DNA of 64,000 bases from an uncultured Clostridia bacterium. Lineage in GTDB: Bacteria > Bacillota > Clostridia > Oscillospirales > Acutalibacteraceae. Shown one piece after another: positions 1 to 8,090 of this stretch. The stretch spans positions 94,794 through 158,793 of the forward strand of contig CALWUY010000066.1 of the NCBI GenBank assembly GCA_944384855.1, written 5' to 3'. The position numbers and the translations under genes were made by a program. The first letter of the stretch is position 1. Each line of letters begins with the position of its first letter. A model generated the notes under the pieces. That model saw only the letters and a list, made by a program, of their open reading frames with translations. It made no database searches and had not been told where the DNA came from.

Positions 1-628
1 CACTACAGGCTTTTTTTACCAGAGCCTCATCAAACAAATATCCGTTTGATACCATTTCGGCTCCAAACTCCAACCCGGCATCGTTCAGACGATTCGAAAT
101 AATATCAATTGCCAAAGCATTGTAAAGAGGCTCTCCTCCGAACCACATAATATGGACCCGCTTACCGCAGGATTTTTTTAAAATGAAGTCAGCAACGTCT
201 CGTGCTGTCTCTGCAGTCATATTAGTTCGTTTGCAGGCAAGTTCAAAGCAATAAAAACATCTGGCATTACAGTCTGTTGTAGGATAAATTACGAAGGTAG
301 TAAGTGGGGATTTATCATTGACCGCCAGCAGCCGAAAAACAGTGTCGGTTTGCTTATAAAGCAAATAATCGTCAAATTCCGTCGGTACCAAAAACCAGTT
401 TTCAATTAAATAACGAACGCTGTCGTTGGAAGTATCAATATTACGAAAGGATTTTGCTTCCACGTTATCAAGAAGCAAAAACTCCCGGGTCATTAGGTTA
501 TACAAAAGCAAACCGTCAGGTGAATCGCAAGTTTGGAGATAGGTGAAAAAGCGTAATGAACCGCCGCTGTATTTCTGTTTTCCAGCAGCTTTAATAATTA
601 CATCTAACGGTTTATTGATTTGTATCAT
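1..628 (-). CDS. radical SAM/SPASM-type peptide maturase, 3' truncated by window edge
   Basis: This open frame was read directly from the minus strand and runs off the left edge, giving 209 residues. An N-terminal region of about 110 residues has the small, PqqD-like look of a RiPP recognition domain. It is followed by the radical SAM cluster motif CNARCFYC (C120, C124, C127) and the SAM-binding motif WFGGEPL at about 162-168. The C-terminal SPASM cysteines would lie outside the window. Such enzymes use a 4Fe-4S cluster and SAM to build thioether or C-C crosslinks in a precursor peptide. The 44-residue two-cysteine peptide encoded 219 bases upstream is the obvious candidate substrate. The ATG at 628 follows AAGGA with a 9-base spacer. 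The enzyme class is firm; its exact family and chemistry are inferred. An anaerobic sulfatase maturase-like role is the main alternative. Confidence 0.82.
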   Translation of the reverse strand, partial: MIQINKPLDVIIKAAGKQKYSGGSLRFFTYLQTCDSPDGLLLYNLMTREFLLLDNVEAKSFRNIDTSNDSVRYLIENWFLVPTEFDDYLLYKQTDTVFRLLAVNDKSPLTTFVIYPTTDCNARCFYCFELACKRTNMTAETARDVADFILKKSCGKRVHIMWFGGEPLYNALAIDIISNRLNDAGLEFGAEMVSNGYLFDEALVKKACS

Positions 629-813
629 AACGCTACATCCTTAAAATAAAATTATTTTTCTCAATTATGATCCGGGAACATTTTTATGAAAAGCCTTAAA
701 GAATTCTGTAAGCACTTTTAATGTTATAGTTATGTCTTTCTCAAATTTTAAATTTTAAACACACCGCTCAATCAAGCGAAATTTTATATTATTTAGCATC
801 TGTAATCAGTAAT

Positions 814-841
814 AACGCGGCTCCTTTACGGGAGCCGCGTT
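814..841 (-). terminator. hairpin between peptide gene and radical SAM gene
   Basis: Perfect 11-bp arms AACGCGGCTCC and GGAGCCGCGTT surround a 6-base loop, starting 6 bases after the stop of the peptide gene. No uninterrupted U-run follows on the minus strand. It may be a partial terminator or a stabilising 3' hairpin that gives more precursor than maturase transcript, a common layout in RiPP operons. Confidence 0.6.
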
Positions 842-847
842 AAGTAA

Positions 848-982
848 TTATGAAATAACAACTTTGTCACATTCGGGCGGCTTATCTCCACCGAAATCAG
901 TTGGAACATCCGGCTGAATGCAACCAGATGTTGTTACTATGTCAGAAACATCAAAACGAACTATTTCCAACTCTGCTTTCAT
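848..982 (-). CDS. 44-residue candidate RiPP precursor peptide
   Basis: This small gene is read from the minus strand, ATG at 982 to TAA at 848-850, with the ribosome binding site GAGGTG 7 bases upstream. The peptide starts MKAELEIVRFDVSDIVTTSG, a charged/hydrophobic leader-like half ending in a TTSG motif. The second half is rich in Pro, Asp and Gly and carries exactly two cysteines, C21 and C38. It lies 53 bases after the cohesin-like gene and is followed by a hairpin and then a radical SAM maturase, all on one strand. Leader plus short Cys-containing core plus adjacent maturase is the standard RiPP arrangement. Small peptides with similar D-V/I-T-T-S leaders occur in Clostridia, from memory, but no family name is assigned here. 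The modification, cleavage point and function are unknown. Confidence 0.72.
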   Translation of the reverse strand: MKAELEIVRFDVSDIVTTSGCIQPDVPTDFGGDKPPECDKVVIS

Positions 983-1035
983 TCTAAAACACCTCGATAT
1001 TAAACTATAAAAATAAACTTAAATAAAACCAAGAA

Positions 1036-2577
1036 TTAATAATTTGGCCAGTAATTACGTGCGGAAGCACCAAATGCAGCGGTTGCCCGATAAAGAGCCT
1101 GAGCTTCACTTTCTACTTCAACCATACCTGCTAAAAGGGATTCAACACTGGTTTCATATACCCAACTATTATTCTGTGTATCAGATATCGTCAGGGTAAT
1201 CTTCTTATCAGTATCAAATAAAGCCATCTTATCAAAGCTGAAACTGTATCCGCCAATATAAGAATACTTTAATTCATCTTCACTGAGATCAGCACCGTTC
1301 ATCGGGAAGCTTTTTTCTTCACCATCAGCCTTGGAATAATAAGACGCAGTAAAAGTCAAATCAGCCGGTGTTTTATGATCACTCTCAAGGAATGTATAAT
1401 AAAGGCTCGGAACGGCGAGCATCTGCAAACGAACCGCAGTGAACTGAGAATCACGACGACCGCCGATATCGGTCAATTTACCGTAATTAGTAGCATAGTC
1501 CTGATTAACATTTGCATTGGGAATATCAAATTCACTGATAAGCGGGTTACCCGGAGCGCCGGTTTTACCAAAGTAAAGTTGTGCTTCAGTACCGAGGTTA
1601 AGCATATCAACCATAAGAGAAGCAGTTGTTACATTAGATGAATTTACACTTGACTGATACATTTCATTAGCCAACTGAGACAAAGTCAACTTTTCATATG
1701 TATAATATCTTGTTGCGCCATCCTTGGTAACATAAAGCGTAAAAGTTATCGGAACACTCATTTCGCTAAGCGCAATATCAGAATAGGTTATATAATAACC
1801 ATGATACTGGGGCATAGAATTTTCATCACATGTTTCCTTTGTGAAAGTCTTACTAATGATATTGCCTGTATAGTTGTATGAAGGTCCTACAATTTCAGGC
1901 TTACTTACTACAAACTCAAAATCGTCATAAGGAGTTTTTGCAAGTGCAAGAGCAAAATAAATACCGAACGTATTGTCGATTGAGATTCTCTTAGCAGTTA
2001 TAACAGAAGCCAAAGACTCATCACGGACAGGTTTCTCAGGTTCTACAACATCCTCAACAACTTCAAAAGTGCCGAAAGTACCGGTAACGTCAACCAGTGT
2101 TTCGCCGTCTTCTGTTACTGAGAAAACGGGTGCCGGATACTCATATACCTGTGCAGCAGCATCTGCTTTAACTGTAGCGGCTATATTGAATGTTAAGGTT
2201 TCCATTGAATCGAGTTCGCCTAACTCAGCACCGAACAAGGAAAGGAATTTAACATAATAAACGCCGTCTTCCTGACCTATCTGATAATAGCCTGTACCTG
2301 TATCAGGGTTATAAGCTTCAAAATCTTCTCCGTTAAGCTTTACACTTTCAACACTGCCTATTGCAGAGGGAAGATTAAACCTTATCAGTGCACCTTGTAC
2401 ATTAATAAAATTAGAAACGGCGAAATCGATATTGACTGCGTCGCCTGCTTTTGCTTCAATAGCATTTGTAGAGTAAGTGGGTGTCACAGCGCTTGCCGGG
2501 ACCGCAGCTACAAATAGTGAAATGCAAAGCACCGCAGTTAAAAGGCAAGAGAGTGACTTTTTGAAAACTTTTTTCAT
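1036..2577 (-). CDS. secreted cohesin-like surface protein
   Basis: The product has 513 residues. The ATG at 2577 is preferred to upstream in-frame starts because AAGGAG precedes it and a clear signal peptide follows (MKKVFKKSL, a hydrophobic core, then VPASA at about residue 30). Residues of about 35-180 resemble a cohesin-type beta-sandwich: AGDAVNIDFAVSNF at the start, then alternating strands and a long Asp/Glu-rich loop. The rest holds two related modules. Each ends in a helical motif of the kind LMVDMLNLGTEAQLYF or ALYRATAAFGASARNYW, seen at the C-termini of many secreted clostridial proteins. No catalytic motif or membrane anchor is visible. It is probably the first gene of the unit that continues into the candidate RiPP peptide and maturase. 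Cohesin similarity is by pattern only; a generic adhesion beta-sandwich is possible. Confidence 0.7.
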   Translation of the reverse strand: MKKVFKKSLSCLLTAVLCISLFVAAVPASAVTPTYSTNAIEAKAGDAVNIDFAVSNFINVQGALIRFNLPSAIGSVESVKLNGEDFEAYNPDTGTGYYQIGQEDGVYYVKFLSLFGAELGELDSMETLTFNIAATVKADAAAQVYEYPAPVFSVTEDGETLVDVTGTFGTFEVVEDVVEPEKPVRDESLASVITAKRISIDNTFGIYFALALAKTPYDDFEFVVSKPEIVGPSYNYTGNIISKTFTKETCDENSMPQYHGYYITYSDIALSEMSVPITFTLYVTKDGATRYYTYEKLTLSQLANEMYQSSVNSSNVTTASLMVDMLNLGTEAQLYFGKTGAPGNPLISEFDIPNANVNQDYATNYGKLTDIGGRRDSQFTAVRLQMLAVPSLYYTFLESDHKTPADLTFTASYYSKADGEEKSFPMNGADLSEDELKYSYIGGYSFSFDKMALFDTDKKITLTISDTQNNSWVYETSVESLLAGMVEVESEAQALYRATAAFGASARNYWPNY

Positions 2578-2917: not shown

Positions 2918-5521
2918 TTACCGTCTTTTTAAAACCAGTGTTATTATCTTTTTAGCTCCAGCTTCGAGTTTTATTATACCTGAGTCTGACTCAATATCCT
3001 CAATCTCAGTTTCCCCAAGATTTGTCATCGCCGCACCAGAAAAAACGCTCTCATCAAATTTTATTGATGCAGTCTGCGTATCGTCAGATACATTATATAT
3101 CCTAAGCACCGCATCGTCGCTGTTTTCCGCCTTCTTTAACGCGGAAAATACTATGTAGTTTCCCTCGGTCTCAATAACAGCAGCGTTAACACCGATTGTT
3201 CCTGTATGCCTGCCGGTTTGAGATACCGCAGTAAAATCTCCCGCAAATGTATATGCCGAACGATAAGCCTCGGCTTTATACTCAGCTGAGTACGGTATTA
3301 CCGAATAGTTTAACGTCAATTCCTTTTTGAGCTGCATATCAGGAGTCGGAAAATCTCCCCAGTCACCCATTTCTCCTACCGCGCGCAGAAGCGTCAGCGC
3401 CATTGTGTTCTTTCCGTCCCGCAGAATTTCATACTCGTTATGTCCGCGGCCTGCTACAAGCAGTCCTCCATTTTCGTCTTCAATGCCGAAAAATGCCTGC
3501 ATGCGCTGTGTGTTTGACGGGTTTTCCCAACCCTGCCACGGCTTTATATTTCTTTTTATAACGTCAAACTGTCCGTCGGCAAATGCCGTGTCAGTTACGG
3601 TCTCCGTCGGGAAAAGCGCCCTTAACCTGTGATTCTCACTTTGATTGCTGATAGTCGTATTTATATCCAGCCTGTCAGACCCTGCCGATAATGTTACCTT
3701 TGTAACTATATTATGGGCTATAACATTTGCGGTTCTGTTCTTTTTACAGTCTATTCCTGCCGGAATATCTATCATGCTGCTGATTTTAAAGGTTACTCCG
3801 AGACAGTTATTCTCAATCAGACAGTATTCCGCAGACTTGGGATAAACCGTAATTCCGTCTTTTGTCTGTTTATAATTGTAAGATTCTCCGCAGTCCCCGG
3901 TATCTTCGTAAAGATTTATACCGCTGTATGTCTTTCCGGTTTTCTTTTCGGTCAGATCTATCGTTCCGTCGCTGTTGATTGAAAAGCTGAGCTTATCGTT
4001 TTCCGCTCCGTTTTCATATACTTTTATGCCGCTTTCTGCATTGCGCCGCTTTCCGGCTGTAAGGCTGTACATAAAACAGCCTATTCCTTTCAGACTGACC
4101 GCAAAACGCAGCCGGTAACACTGACGGTATTTAACCTGACGGAACTTATCTTTAGGAAGCGTATATGTAAACTTTTCCCCTAAATATTCCGCCTGCACAG
4201 GACACTCATTTCCGTCAGCATCTTTTATTACAATATTTTCCGGATCAATGTATTCATCCGTATATACCAATTTGTCTATTATATGCCTCGATGTCTGAGG
4301 ACTGGTATGGAATACAGCTATGTTTACATCCGCCATACCCGAGGTGTCTGCTCCGGCAAGTATATAATTCATAGCTTCTTCAAGCACGCCTTCCGCCACA
4401 TCGTATGCCTTGTCAAAACGGATATTCATTTCTCTCGGAACCGCGTCACAAGAGCAGCAGCATATTGAATCATGCGGATGACACTGCATAAGCTTTTTCC
4501 AGCCGTAGCGGAGCAAATCATAACGGTACTTATCTCCGTACACTGAAGCCAGTGTGCTGACCGGTTCGCTTAAATGGGCAAACATATTCTGGGTTTTATG
4601 ATTTTTCTGCTTTAAAGGAATATGTGTGGACGCCGTATCTATCAGCAGGTTTTTCCCCGCGGTATACTGTCCCTCAATTTCGCCGCGTATTGCCGCGAAA
4701 TTTTCGGTGTATGGTTTAATCGCTTTAATGTAATCTTTGAAATTACTGTGCTTTATCTCAACCCTGTCTCCGAAAATCTCGTTTGCTTTAGCAATAGATT
4801 CCGGTAAATCGCACTGTACAGGCTCATGATCGCAGCCGTTCATTCCGAGCAAATGTGGGGTCTTTGCAGCGCTTTCAAGAGATTCAATAAGTTCTCCGTA
4901 AACTTTTTTGATTTCTTCGGTGTCAGAAGAAGGGAGTTCATTAGCGTTATTGTACCAATCTTTGAACATAATGCCGTCTACGCGGCTTCCGTCAGCTCCG
5001 TACCATATTATTTCCTTATCATCGGAACTGTTCTGGTCGTCTACCTTGTTATCCGCCAATATTATTCCTATACCTCTTCCGAATACGGCGGTTTCTATGT
5101 TGAATCCCTTCAGTATCTGCGGAAGCTGCGATATATTTCCGAAAGCATCCGGCATATACCCGCATTCTACCGGCTCAAAACCGTTTTCTTTGCAGAACTT
5201 AAGCCCTTCTATCATATTTCGTATATTTGATTCTCCGCTTGTAAGATACTCATCCTGCAAAATATACCAGGGTCCTGTCTGGATACGGTCAGCTCTGATA
5301 AGAGCATAAAGACGATCTTTCATCTGCGGACGTATTTCAAGATAATCTTCTATCATTATTGTCTGGCCGTCCAGATGAAAATATCTGAAATTTTCGTCCT
5401 GCTCCATCTTCTCAATAAGACAGTCTATAAGCTCGACAAGCCTCATTCTGTGTTTTTCGAAGCTCATGTACCATTCCCTGTCCCAGTGAGTATGGGATAT
5501 TAGATGTAAAGTTTTTTTCAT
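2918..5521 (-). CDS. GH38 alpha-mannosidase, cytoplasmic
   Basis: The product has 867 residues and no signal peptide. GH38 enzymes are zinc-dependent retaining exo-alpha-mannosidases. The N-terminal HTHWDREW motif supplies zinc ligands H12 and D14, and MPDAFGN carries the expected nucleophile/zinc ligand D125. The later QCHPHDSIC segment supplies the family histidine. The C-terminal half is the usual beta-sandwich. Length is normal for bacterial GH38 of the MngB/mannosylglycerate-hydrolase-like group. It has its own near-consensus promoter, so it is transcribed separately from the upstream enzyme genes. The likely role is trimming imported mannose-containing oligosaccharides in the cytoplasm. 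The family is certain; linkage specificity is not readable from sequence. Confidence 0.93.
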   Translation of the reverse strand: MKKTLHLISHTHWDREWYMSFEKHRMRLVELIDCLIEKMEQDENFRYFHLDGQTIMIEDYLEIRPQMKDRLYALIRADRIQTGPWYILQDEYLTSGESNIRNMIEGLKFCKENGFEPVECGYMPDAFGNISQLPQILKGFNIETAVFGRGIGIILADNKVDDQNSSDDKEIIWYGADGSRVDGIMFKDWYNNANELPSSDTEEIKKVYGELIESLESAAKTPHLLGMNGCDHEPVQCDLPESIAKANEIFGDRVEIKHSNFKDYIKAIKPYTENFAAIRGEIEGQYTAGKNLLIDTASTHIPLKQKNHKTQNMFAHLSEPVSTLASVYGDKYRYDLLRYGWKKLMQCHPHDSICCCSCDAVPREMNIRFDKAYDVAEGVLEEAMNYILAGADTSGMADVNIAVFHTSPQTSRHIIDKLVYTDEYIDPENIVIKDADGNECPVQAEYLGEKFTYTLPKDKFRQVKYRQCYRLRFAVSLKGIGCFMYSLTAGKRRNAESGIKVYENGAENDKLSFSINSDGTIDLTEKKTGKTYSGINLYEDTGDCGESYNYKQTKDGITVYPKSAEYCLIENNCLGVTFKISSMIDIPAGIDCKKNRTANVIAHNIVTKVTLSAGSDRLDINTTISNQSENHRLRALFPTETVTDTAFADGQFDVIKRNIKPWQGWENPSNTQRMQAFFGIEDENGGLLVAGRGHNEYEILRDGKNTMALTLLRAVGEMGDWGDFPTPDMQLKKELTLNYSVIPYSAEYKAEAYRSAYTFAGDFTAVSQTGRHTGTIGVNAAVIETEGNYIVFSALKKAENSDDAVLRIYNVSDDTQTASIKFDESVFSGAAMTNLGETEIEDIESDSGIIKLEAGAKKIITLVLKRR

Positions 5522-5589
5522 ATACTGCTCCTCCAGGTGCCTCTAATAATTTAAAACACATATTTCAGTTATATAGTTATTTAGTTGTT

Positions 5590-5642
5590 ATACAGATAAA
5601 ATATCAACCTGTATTATACCATTGTTATCTGCCGTGTGTCAA
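5590..5642 (-). promoter_or_regulatory. near-consensus sigma-A promoter plus inverted repeat for GH38 gene
   Basis: TTGACA (5637-5642), an 18-bp spacer and TATAAT (5613-5618) lie on the minus strand about 90 bases ahead of the GH38 start. Overlapping the -10 and start site is an inverted repeat, ATACAG (5590-5595) and CTGTAT (5609-5614), that could bind a repressor. Confidence 0.7.
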
Positions 5643-5693
5643 GTAATTAAAAATTGTAATATTAAGTGAAAAATCCACCTGCAATATCGGCCT

Positions 5694-8090
5694 TTAAATC
5701 ATTGACAGCATCTCGCTGAATTCACCGTTTTTGAATAAAACGGTTTTGATCTCATAACCCAAAAACCTTAAATCAGCTTCATATTCTCCGACTCGCAGCT
5801 TTGTGACACAAGCAGTCTCATTGTTGTTGAACAGCCTGAAAACAAATCCTCCGTCTTCCTTATAAAGTGATGACAGGGTTATTTCTTTGCTTGAAACCTC
5901 TATTTTACTGACTTTATATCCCTTACCGTCCGGGAAAGCATTCACACTGTAAGGCTTTTCGCAAAATTCCAATGCCATCCTGTCATTTTCGCACGGTTCA
6001 TTCACCGACATCCTGAAACTGAAGGTATGCTTGCCCTGTTCTGCATAAGGAATGTAACGGTCGTCAGCAATAAGCTTGCGGTCTTCTATCGGGTGAGTAC
6101 AATATCCTATTCCCCGTATCAGTGTCAGATACAGATTTTCCGCGTCGGCACTGCAGCCGTATAAACAGTTATTGAACACACTTAGTGATTTTCCGTTTCC
6201 TCTCTTGAGACACACAAAACGCTGCGCTACATTTTCCCTGCCGTCACGCTCAAACTCATCCGTACCGTAGGCAGTCTGTCCGATAAATCCGCCTTCATTT
6301 GACGGTATCTTTAATTTAAGCGCTTTGTCTCTTTCATTCCAAAGCACATCAAGGCTTACATCTATATACGTAAGATCTTTATACATCTTATAACTTATAC
6401 GTACAGTGGAATCTCCCGCCTTAAAAAACGATTCCGCCTCTGTAAGAATATCGCCGTCCTCGATTATATGGACGTTTTCTATACCCTCAAAAATTCCATC
6501 AGACGAAAGGTCAGCGTCTGCCGGATTACTTCCGATCTTATCAATATCCCAGCCCCAGCTGTCAGGAGTGTCATCATACATAACCGGCAAAAACGCTCCT
6601 CCGGTTACATACTCGTTTCCGTCTACCCTAAAGCTTTCAATCAAACCGGTTTTTTTGGAAATCACAACCCTCTTGCACGAATCTTCAAACACGATATCGC
6701 CCTCTGCAACTTCGGGTTTCCCGGTAACCGGAACTTCTTTAAAGGTAACATCAAACCGTGCTGCTGAAAGCGCCGGAAGCTTTGCTCTGAACGCAATACG
6801 TTTACGGCGGTCATAGTTAATATTGGATTCCTGCTTGATTACCTGATTTGATATTATTTGCCCGTTATGCCTTACGGTGACCTCGTAGCAAACCGTATCC
6901 GAAATAATGGGATCCAGCACAAGAATTTCAGACTCAACAACAGTATCCCTGTCATATGCTGACGGATTGAACACAAATATCGGATATACCCCGTCGCCCG
7001 CCTTTACATCATCGTTTACAAGGGAGAAAAATGCCTTTTGCTTTAATTCCTTAAGCAGATACAAAGCATGATCCGCATGGTTTATAACGCTTTTTTCTGC
7101 GGTTTCGACCATTGTTCCGCTTAAAGAATCATGAAATTCCATCGTAAGCAATGCCCTTTCCGCATCTGAAAATGCATCGCTGTCCCAGACGTTTTTACCG
7201 TTAAGCTCAGCCGCAGCGCATAACTTTTCGGTCATATACAATGCGGTTTCCAATTCGATATGTTTCTGCTTTATCTTAGTAAGCGATGTATAGCATCCTA
7301 TCAGAAAATGAGAAAGCTGACCTGAATAATCAACATCAGGATTAACATCAGCGAAAAATTTTTCAGGAGTGCTGTGCAATATTTCGTACTCTTTTGTTTC
7401 CGCGATAAGGTCGTTTACATCCTTTAAATCTTTCCTCGACGGGTTGCCGCCGTGGTTTCCTACACCCCAAAGCGCAATACCAGTTTCGTAGGACTTCCAG
7501 CATTCCGCTTTTTTGGGGATAAATTCCTTGGCCTTGCTCGATTTTGTATCGTACATAAAATCATCGGCTATACGGCATACCTTGATTTTGCTGCCGTCAT
7601 ATCCCACCCAGTTGAACTGGTCTGCCGGAAGCTCTAAATACTGGGGCATTGGACGGCAGATAAGATAACTGTCATATCCGCATTTTTTCAGTATCTGTAC
7701 AAGTCCCCTTGAATGTCCGAATGAATCGAAATTTATTGCGGTGGTAGGTCTCACACCGAAATGTTTTTCAAAATATCTTATTCCGCTGCGAATCTGTCTT
7801 ACAAAACTCTCTCCTGAAGGCAGATGACAGTCCGGCTGAAGATACCATCCGCCCATAATGTGCCATTTGCCCGCCTTTACCAGCCGCTTTATCTTCTCAA
7901 ACAGCGAAGGATCGTACTCTCTGATATACTCATAAAGCAAAGCTTCATTGTGACAGAAAATATAATCATATTCATCACAGAATTCCGCTGCTGTTCTGAA
8001 TGTGGAGAGCGCAGCGGCTATACCCTCGTCAAAATCCCACATCCACACCGGGTCAAGATGTGAATTACACACAAGATGCAAACGCTTCAT
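5694..8090 (-). CDS. second GH38 alpha-mannosidase-family enzyme, cytoplasmic
   Basis: The product has 798 residues and no signal peptide. It belongs to the same family as the next gene downstream but to a distinct subgroup. The N-terminal SHLDPVW carries zinc ligands H11 and D13, INFDSFGHSRGL carries nucleophile D122, and FHDSLSGTMVE is the equivalent of the family HDS motif. The protein therefore keeps all catalytic positions. It starts 3 bases after the GH-A-like gene 8094-9083, which implies translational coupling in a three-gene unit with 9094-11928. Two divergent GH38 enzymes side by side suggest that two mannosidic linkages are handled. The substrate is inferred only. Confidence 0.92.
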   Translation of the reverse strand: MKRLHLVCNSHLDPVWMWDFDEGIAAALSTFRTAAEFCDEYDYIFCHNEALLYEYIREYDPSLFEKIKRLVKAGKWHIMGGWYLQPDCHLPSGESFVRQIRSGIRYFEKHFGVRPTTAINFDSFGHSRGLVQILKKCGYDSYLICRPMPQYLELPADQFNWVGYDGSKIKVCRIADDFMYDTKSSKAKEFIPKKAECWKSYETGIALWGVGNHGGNPSRKDLKDVNDLIAETKEYEILHSTPEKFFADVNPDVDYSGQLSHFLIGCYTSLTKIKQKHIELETALYMTEKLCAAAELNGKNVWDSDAFSDAERALLTMEFHDSLSGTMVETAEKSVINHADHALYLLKELKQKAFFSLVNDDVKAGDGVYPIFVFNPSAYDRDTVVESEILVLDPIISDTVCYEVTVRHNGQIISNQVIKQESNINYDRRKRIAFRAKLPALSAARFDVTFKEVPVTGKPEVAEGDIVFEDSCKRVVISKKTGLIESFRVDGNEYVTGGAFLPVMYDDTPDSWGWDIDKIGSNPADADLSSDGIFEGIENVHIIEDGDILTEAESFFKAGDSTVRISYKMYKDLTYIDVSLDVLWNERDKALKLKIPSNEGGFIGQTAYGTDEFERDGRENVAQRFVCLKRGNGKSLSVFNNCLYGCSADAENLYLTLIRGIGYCTHPIEDRKLIADDRYIPYAEQGKHTFSFRMSVNEPCENDRMALEFCEKPYSVNAFPDGKGYKVSKIEVSSKEITLSSLYKEDGGFVFRLFNNNETACVTKLRVGEYEADLRFLGYEIKTVLFKNGEFSEMLSMI

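Follow-up and report, generated by a model that had tools for sequence, protein, structure and literature searches.

Ribosomally synthesized and post-translationally modified peptides (RiPPs) have mostly been viewed as antibiotics, signals or cofactors. The present work deals with a RiPP-type unit found in a stretch of 64,000 nucleotides (hereafter, the window) from an uncultured Clostridia bacterium of the Acutalibacteraceae (contig CALWUY010000066.1, positions 94,794 to 158,793; G000:C66:94794-158793 in our numbering, where G-numbers stand for genomes, L-numbers for loci or sequence stretches, and f-numbers for bacterial families). In this unit, the gene of a short precursor peptide lies between that of a large secreted-type surface protein and those of a radical S-adenosylmethionine (SAM)/SPASM enzyme and an HPr-kinase-like protein. 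Its predicted chemistry is a variant of that of radical SAM RiPP systems; what is new is the association with a surface protein whose C-terminal domain (CTD) has no name. We give a probability slightly better than even (roughly 0.55) to the reading that a leader-guided, thioether-crosslinked and phosphorylated peptide acts with the CTD protein outside the cell.

The closest described systems are those of the ranthipeptides and the SCIFF maturases (e.g., CteB and PapB) which, like our unit, combine a leader peptide with a radical SAM/SPASM enzyme (PMC8326336, PMC9413430). CteB, Tte1186 and QhpD have seven SPASM cysteines each (PMC10352776), the number found in our enzyme. Ranthipeptides possess Cys residues with a nearby Asp or Glu, as does the present peptide family. 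PapB forms its link between Cys and Asp or Glu in CX3D, and also tolerates CX0-6D (PMC9413430); the spacing of the present family is CX2[DE] rather than CX3D. SCIFF peptides, in turn, contain six Cys in forty-five residues; as our peptide has two, membership in that class was rejected. Our unit also differs from both groups in being linked to a surface protein and a kinase.

Lasso peptide clusters encode an HPr kinase homologue that phosphorylates a Ser at the C-terminus of the precursor, together with a nucleotidyltransferase that attaches hexoses to this phosphate (PMC8498205). The clusters of paeninodin and pseudomycoidin have the HprK-like fold in common with our unit, and in some relatives of the latter PqqD and NTP_transf_5 genes adjoin the kinase gene. 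The core of our peptide ends in Ser, like the substrate of the lasso kinases, but other members of the peptide family do not consistently have Ser at this end. No lasso cyclase was noticed in the loci, for which no profile search aimed at lasso cyclases was made.

As for the surface protein, cellulosomal cohesins appear among the Foldseek matches of its model, with no match at sequence level, and other CTD proteins carry other N-termini (e.g., Listeria-Bacteroides repeats). Finally, PEP-CTERM/exosortase systems are comparable in the short C-terminal tail common to several surface proteins of one genome, a situation encountered in the present material in family f17 only; in contrast to PEP-CTERM, the tail discussed below is for the most part encoded on its own, as a leader peptide, and can include Cys residues for crosslinking. 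In the open-licence PMC literature, a scope outside which most subscription papers and all preprints fall, no description was found of a RiPP precursor paired with such a surface protein.

Organization of the unit

All parts of the unit are on the minus strand, as deduced from gene positions in the window and its left flank, in the following order: surface protein gene (513 amino acids, aa), 53 nucleotides (nt), peptide gene (44 aa), RNA hairpin, radical SAM/SPASM gene (465 aa), 32 nt, and HPr-kinase-like gene (235 aa). A preliminary description of the window, made from its letters alone, had reported the 44-residue peptide with Cys at 21 and 38, the radical SAM enzyme downstream and the secreted protein gene at 53 nt, all of which were confirmed on this strand. 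The features are:

1036..2577, minus strand: secreted surface protein gene P0004 (513 aa from an inner ATG), with signal-peptide-like N-terminus, beta domain and two-repeat CTD
2059..2478, minus strand: N-terminal beta domain (residues 34-173; strands in the AlphaFold model), possibly of cohesin fold
1042..2019, minus strand: CTD, two repeats of beta-sandwich plus helices, ending in ALYRATAAFGASARNYWPNY; common to proteins in 18/79 related loci
848..982, minus strand: precursor peptide gene P0003 (44 aa, Cys at 21 and 38), leader family A2
813..842, minus strand: strong RNA hairpin of 12 pairs, located between the genes of the peptide and the radical SAM enzyme (z -5.29)
1..628, minus strand: 5' part of the radical SAM/SPASM gene (CNARCFYC, GGEP), which runs on left of the window
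G000:C66:94027-95421, minus strand: match of the whole radical SAM/SPASM gene (465 aa), reaching into the left flank
C66:93287-93994, minus strand: HPr-kinase-like gene (235 aa), outside the window, in the left flank

The unit ends at the kinase gene, since the YetF-like and DUF4363 genes found past it by Pfam scan run on the opposite strand. The promoter previously placed before the surface gene was not sustained, as the promoter and terminator scan performed no better than shuffles (10 promoter-like sites against 8.9). The hairpin had no Rfam match and was not called in the terminator scan.

Pairing of the CTD with the peptide

A scan with the radical SAM enzyme across bacterial and archaeal genomes gave 137 relatives, from which 79 loci (36-44% identity) were kept. 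Many of these loci are cut by contig ends and, in consequence, locus counts are lower bounds. Peptides were recognized with a hidden Markov model (HMM) of the leader, trained on 22 peptides (our own included) from radical SAM loci only, and were counted if the match lay at most 3 kb away on the same strand. The CTD, of about 240 aa, is common to our surface protein and to 18 proteins of the 79 loci. A peptide comes directly after the CTD gene in 16 of these 18 loci, and none was found after those of L030 and L068. A surface gene at the head of such a unit, formerly regarded as unusual, turns out to be a recurrent arrangement.

From the CTD side, an order-wide search gave about 111 places, of which 90 were read, the weakest being left out. 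These 90 stretches hold 93 distinct CTD frames, including 62 terminal CTDs with at least 250 nt beyond. A leader-type peptide follows 29 of the 62 terminal CTD genes (our own included) versus 1 of 85 other genes of these stretches (Fisher, 2e-12), and this single positive control gene itself lies in a CTD locus. In a second sample, 12 of 23 CTD genes are followed by a peptide (L196 repeats L175). The pairing spans several families of Clostridia, together with loci titled Coriobacteria. Pairs from the CTD-side search mostly have no radical SAM gene: the pair of surface protein and peptide exists without that enzyme. The link of the peptide to surface biology put forward in the preliminary description is supported by this recurrence. 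In one genus, the small peptide encoded after the CTD genes of L089 and L092 is of another kind, with four Cys, and the 1.5 kb read there holds no radical SAM match.

In the AlphaFold model of the surface protein (mean pLDDT 77.7), the CTD consists of two repeats of a beta-sandwich plus helices. It has no Pfam or NCBIfam name, no family being matched by more than one of its 19 members, and its profile found nothing convincing among PDB sequences. Profile searches covered 394 genomes at the level of the order, with the CTD present in 47, and 391 at the level of the class, with the CTD present in 22 (G000, G066 and G217 are counted in both); some genomes have at least seven copies, and our own has a single match. 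From these counts, the CTD is widespread but patchy, and the expectation of a domain present in all clostridial surface proteins was abandoned.

Acidic tails fused to the CTD

Eight CTD proteins run 15-20 residues past the CTD, with seven acidic tails and six ending in Trp; the HMM finds no peptide after any of the eight. The acidic share of the last 18 residues is 0.31 in the tailed proteins, 0.26 in the peptides, 0.06 in bare CTD ends and 0.14 in control genes. Trp occurs within the last two residues in 6/8, 7/29, 0/63 and 5/479 of them, respectively. Both forms are present in G355, whose peptides end in EDEDETGILPW and whose CTD proteins end in DEDESEIIPW and DVDETEISVW. In about 382 kb of this genome (overlaps included, on contigs selected for holding such genes), 3 of 265 proteins of at least 120 aa have W or Wx at their C-terminus, and the two tailed CTD proteins are among these three.

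The peptide gene starts -4 to 143 nt after the CTD gene (at most 29 nt in 22/29 cases). Such a fixed order and short spacing would also suit a regulatory or sensing element, autoinducer-like, that reports on or controls how the surface protein is made or displayed. Genomes often contain more than one peptide, in some cases with a common tail, which is consistent with that role, and PMC8326336 cites work on ranthipeptides in clostridial quorum sensing, to judge from the title of the reference. Nevertheless, a diffusible signal is not expected to have tails fused to CTD proteins and, among the gene clusters listed, no recurring regulator was seen by eye in CTD loci. A regulatory peptide is, then, distinctly unlikely.

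The precursor peptide and its leader

Our peptide comprises a leader (M1-S19) and a core (G20-S44), with C21 in the context C-IQP-D (CX3D) and a C-terminal Ser44; in its own genome, it is the sole significant member of its leader family. Beside enzyme relatives, a leader peptide is present in 34/49 loci not titled Bacteroidales or Prevotella and in 1/30 so titled (34/50 and 1/29 under another sorting of L068). It was also found in 16 of the 31 non-Bacteroidales loci that contributed no sequence to the HMM training, and additional peptides were recognized by eye in L071, L072, L055 and L073. In 25 aligned peptides, the leader reads roughly xEIVxFxxxDVITTS, with Asp14 invariant and Ser19 in at least 90%, and is followed by a variable core. 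The peptide is, in short, a small precursor with a conserved leader and a variable core, and the idea of a chance open reading frame was rejected because the leader recurs in related loci. The plan proposed earlier (a leader peptide with a radical SAM/SPASM neighbour) is supported; a peptide absent or unconserved beside the maturase relatives, which was to speak against it, did not turn up.

Enzyme relatives also occur with peptides and no nearby CTD gene, some of them with ABC exporters and S24-like peptidases, and a CTD gene is missing from 29 of the 30 loci with Bacteroidales or Prevotella in the title. These loci would fit the secretion of an ordinary RiPP, be it an antimicrobial or a signal, of ranthipeptide or sactipeptide type, in which case the surface protein would be a co-regulated bystander or a self-protection factor. 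But CTD genes pair with Cys-free leader peptides with no radical SAM gene in the stretch read, acidic tails are fused to CTD proteins, and a bystander has no obvious reason to keep pairing, all of which makes the ordinary RiPP unlikely.

Other observations on this peptide family are the following: (i) the core in L036 (5036-5185) contains an internal duplication (CPNDTGFG twice); (ii) L010, L028 and L005 carry two or three tandem maturase relatives per locus, with one detected peptide upstream; (iii) in L209, L213 and L229, leader peptides lie behind non-CTD genes (of metabolic, SLH and secreted type, respectively), the tail of the L229 peptide being identical to that of a CTD-linked peptide; and (iv) in L214 (580-1617), the frame of an SLH-type protein continues without a stop into a leader peptide. 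Taken as a fusion, this last case is weak owing to a strong ribosome site before an inner ATG, and fused and separate forms may both be made.

Core cysteines and the radical SAM/SPASM enzyme

The enzyme, whose gene is completed left of position 1, has the motifs CNARCFYC (CX3CX2C) and GGEP and seven SPASM Cys, a feature that the preliminary description had proposed to look for there; all are invariant in 33 aligned sequences. The peptide is, accordingly, adjacent to a maturase with both the CX3CX2C motif and the SPASM cysteines. Among the NCBIfam models listed (25 of 32 families), the best matches are TIGR04463 (132.7 bits, cut-off 525) and Clo7bot TIGR04334 (90.2 bits, cut-off 600). As the enzyme falls under the cut-off of each model listed, and far under those of these two, it fits no curated maturase family, and membership in TIGR04463 was rejected. 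The sole solved relative at the thresholds used is 5wgg/5why (CteB). An anaerobic sulfatase maturase, the alternative contemplated earlier, was likewise rejected, there being no sulfatase among the locus genes scanned and no sulfatase-maturase model among the 25 of 32 NCBIfam families listed.

Whether or not a CTD-linked peptide has a radical SAM neighbour is closely related to the presence of Cys in its core. Among peptides after CTD genes (minus our own locus and the repeat, with usually 1-3 kb read downstream), a radical SAM gene accompanies 7 of the 8 with core Cys and none of the 31 without Cys (Fisher, 5e-7); one of the seven, L119, has a weak match of 30.5 bits at a contig end. Within our genus, G532 shows the order CTD, peptide with Cys, radical SAM, PqqD and kinase, and G066 a Cys-free peptide after the CTD gene and no radical SAM match.

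In 33 non-Bacteroidales cores (kinship ignored), an acidic residue occupies Cys+3 for 29 of 67 Cys (0.43, against 0.20 in shuffles, with 0/1000 as high), and no other position from -6 to +6 stands out. Counted per locus, CX2[DE] appears in 20/30, versus 9.7 in shuffles; in seven further peptides, 6 of 12 Cys have the acid at +3 (shuffle p 0.08). This enrichment suggests thioethers from Cys to Asp or Glu, our best guess for the family as far as sequence goes. A single class of crosslink involving two Cys, as proposed in the preliminary description, is unlikely for the family because 12 of the 33 listed cores have one Cys. In our peptide, the Cys-Xn-Asp motif is seen at C21 only.

PqqD genes adjoin some of the enzyme relatives. 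In L013 (5983-7575; Bacteroidales), the maturase is extended at its C-terminus by a segment resembling PqqD by eye. In L020 (uncultured bacterium) and L024 (Prevotellaceae), the maturase stands beside genes that look by eye like those of an ABC exporter, an HlyD-like protein and a large signalling-type lipoprotein, a layout that appears to be a different RiPP arrangement. A radical SAM relative found by profile search at G240:C57:4873-6189 has one in-frame TGA.

The HPr-kinase-like gene and its cassette

The kinase-like protein belongs to no Pfam family. Its model (pLDDT 93.9) matched HprK/P and ATP-dependent phosphoenolpyruvate carboxykinases in Foldseek (E 2e-6 and up; template modelling (TM) scores 0.3-0.5); the match to 1kkm has E 2.3e-6 and probability 1.00, with a TM of only 0.33-0.43. 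The P-loop GTGKTTH and an N-x-D-x-P motif are invariant in 25 aligned relatives, and the protein combines an HprK fold with a P-loop. By analogy with the lasso clusters, the precursor peptide is a plausible substrate of this kinase.

A kinase-like gene is present in 27 of the 79 related loci. In 15 genomes picked for CTD-linked peptides, the peptide was matched in 15 and the kinase in 14; with two same-genus genomes added, the kinase is found in 16/17 and the radical SAM enzyme in 6/17. Among 28 genomes picked solely for being CTD-free, the kinase is matched strongly in 3 (E up to 1e-40, a limit chosen afterwards) and a peptide is present in 4, the 3 lying within the 4 (Fisher, 0.001). In three more CTD-free genomes, the kinase matches are weak and partial; of these three, G018 also has a peptide match. 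The kinase tracks the peptide more widely than the radical SAM enzyme does.

Of 19 stretches around kinase genes, 11 have PqqD (that of L294 in a doubtful 265-aa frame), 6 an S24-like peptidase and 4 NTP_transf_5. The stretch L284 (915-5773) holds a CTD protein, a Cys-free leader peptide, the kinase, PqqD, an S24-like peptidase and NTP_transf_5, and no radical SAM gene. In L281 (1364-10268), genes for an HPr-kinase-like protein, PqqD and an ABC exporter lie beside genes that look by eye like those of capsule or exopolysaccharide type.

Given that 31 of 39 CTD-linked peptides have neither core Cys nor a radical SAM gene in the stretch read, the peptide might be imagined as a cytosolic helper or export adaptor of the surface protein, never matured, the enzymes acting elsewhere. 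That is very improbable: the radical SAM gene tracks core Cys, acids are enriched at Cys+3 only, and kinase, PqqD and S24-like genes come directly after a Cys-free peptide in L284.

Proposed maturation and weight of the evidence

The reading of a RiPP-type unit tied to a surface protein is supported by direct observation of the gene order, its conservation, the intact catalytic motifs, the rule relating Cys to radical SAM genes, the co-occurrence of the kinase and, in one family, the fused tails. The 44-aa peptide would be bound through its leader. The radical SAM/SPASM enzyme would form thioethers between acidic side chains and Cys residues of the core (C21 and perhaps C38), and the HPr-kinase-like enzyme would phosphorylate a hydroxyl of the peptide. 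The leader would then be removed near the conserved TS|G, and the core would function outside the cell with the surface protein whose CTD gene precedes the peptide gene. In relatives, the core would be the separately encoded counterpart of the short acidic tail that is fused to the CTD in one family. Thioether formation, phosphorylation and its site are proposed from what is known of these enzyme families, while the cleavage at TS|G, the export route and the binding or joining to the CTD are speculative. Within the peptide family, crosslinking is best read as optional.

Several observations weigh against this reading. Regarding the pairing, no HMM peptide follows 33 of the 62 terminal CTD genes and 11 of the 23 in the second sample (by our count, 19 of the 33 misses fall in three genomes of one genus, G434, G489 and G523, and some of the 33 show a peptide-like frame by eye), and the peptide-bearing relatives L033 and L060 have no CTD gene within about 6 kb. 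Regarding the chemistry, L138 has Cys in its core, and the approximately 3 kb read there contain no radical SAM gene; neither Cys of our own peptide is followed by an acid at +3, the Asp after C21 being at +4; and hhalign gives residues 1-105 of the enzyme a probability of 0.3% against PqqD, offering no support for a RiPP recognition element. As to the kinase, the peptide match of G018 has an internal stop and is accompanied by only a weak partial kinase match, and G436 (81% complete) has 10 peptide places and no kinase match. All seven acidic-tailed cases come from one family (f17), the second sample contains no CTD protein with such a tail, and our core has no Trp and does not look like the fused tails; therefore, for our own locus, the tail idea relies on leader homology and gene position only. 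Lastly, from the surface gene up to the opposite-strand genes, the unit is free of genes for a transporter, a peptidase or PqqD, so that neither the transporter nor the protease suggested earlier for the region left of position 1 was found in it; PqqD has five matches elsewhere in the genome. As the locus is devoid of exporter and peptidase, cleavage and export would depend on genes located elsewhere.

A wider proposal, possible but on the doubtful side, is that of a general finishing of surface proteins. A C-terminal tail would be encoded apart with a RiPP leader, processed in the cytoplasm by HprK, PqqD, S24 and nucleotidyltransferase proteins (and crosslinked by a radical SAM/SPASM enzyme if it has Cys), and then bound or covalently joined to the CTD; some lineages would have fused the tail, unmodified, to the protein.

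N-terminal domain and neighbouring genes

The N-terminal parts of the CTD proteins vary: Listeria-Bacteroides repeats occur in 3 of 6 scanned (L036, L061 and L075), and our N-terminal domain has 37% identity to that of L016 and 27% to that of L004. A signal-peptide-like N-terminus is seen by eye in 5 of 19 (our own, L004, L007, L016 and L072), many of the others ending at a contig edge. Of the "cohesin-like" secreted protein in the preliminary description, the secreted type stood. The cohesin part had no sequence support, with no Pfam match at E up to 1 and none for the N-terminal domain in PDB sequences, and membership in the cellulosomal cohesin sequence family was rejected, the matches being of fold only. 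Foldseek with the whole surface model, for which the matched range is not given, returned several cohesins (4ums, E 2.1e-6; 4uyp_C, TM 0.60 by target) mixed with antibody and other Ig-fold chains. Our N-terminal domain may be cohesin-like in fold.

To the right of the unit (window 2918-8090), there are two glycoside-hydrolase-like genes, of alpha-mannosidase type by eye; a third glycoside-hydrolase-like gene lies at 2773-5184 of L003, the left flank.

Meaning of the pairing

The locus presents a RiPP-type precursor bound by gene order to large surface-type proteins, through a CTD that has no name in Pfam or NCBIfam. Its chemistry is open to direct test, thanks to the Cys rule and the CX2[DE] pattern. 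Should the peptide end up on the protein, bacterial surfaces would be built with the aid of radical SAM chemistry and peptide kinases, and one common device would carry the variable N-termini as its payloads. The pairing in distant relatives suggests that bacteria furnish surface proteins with a modified peptide in a way that has been little explored.

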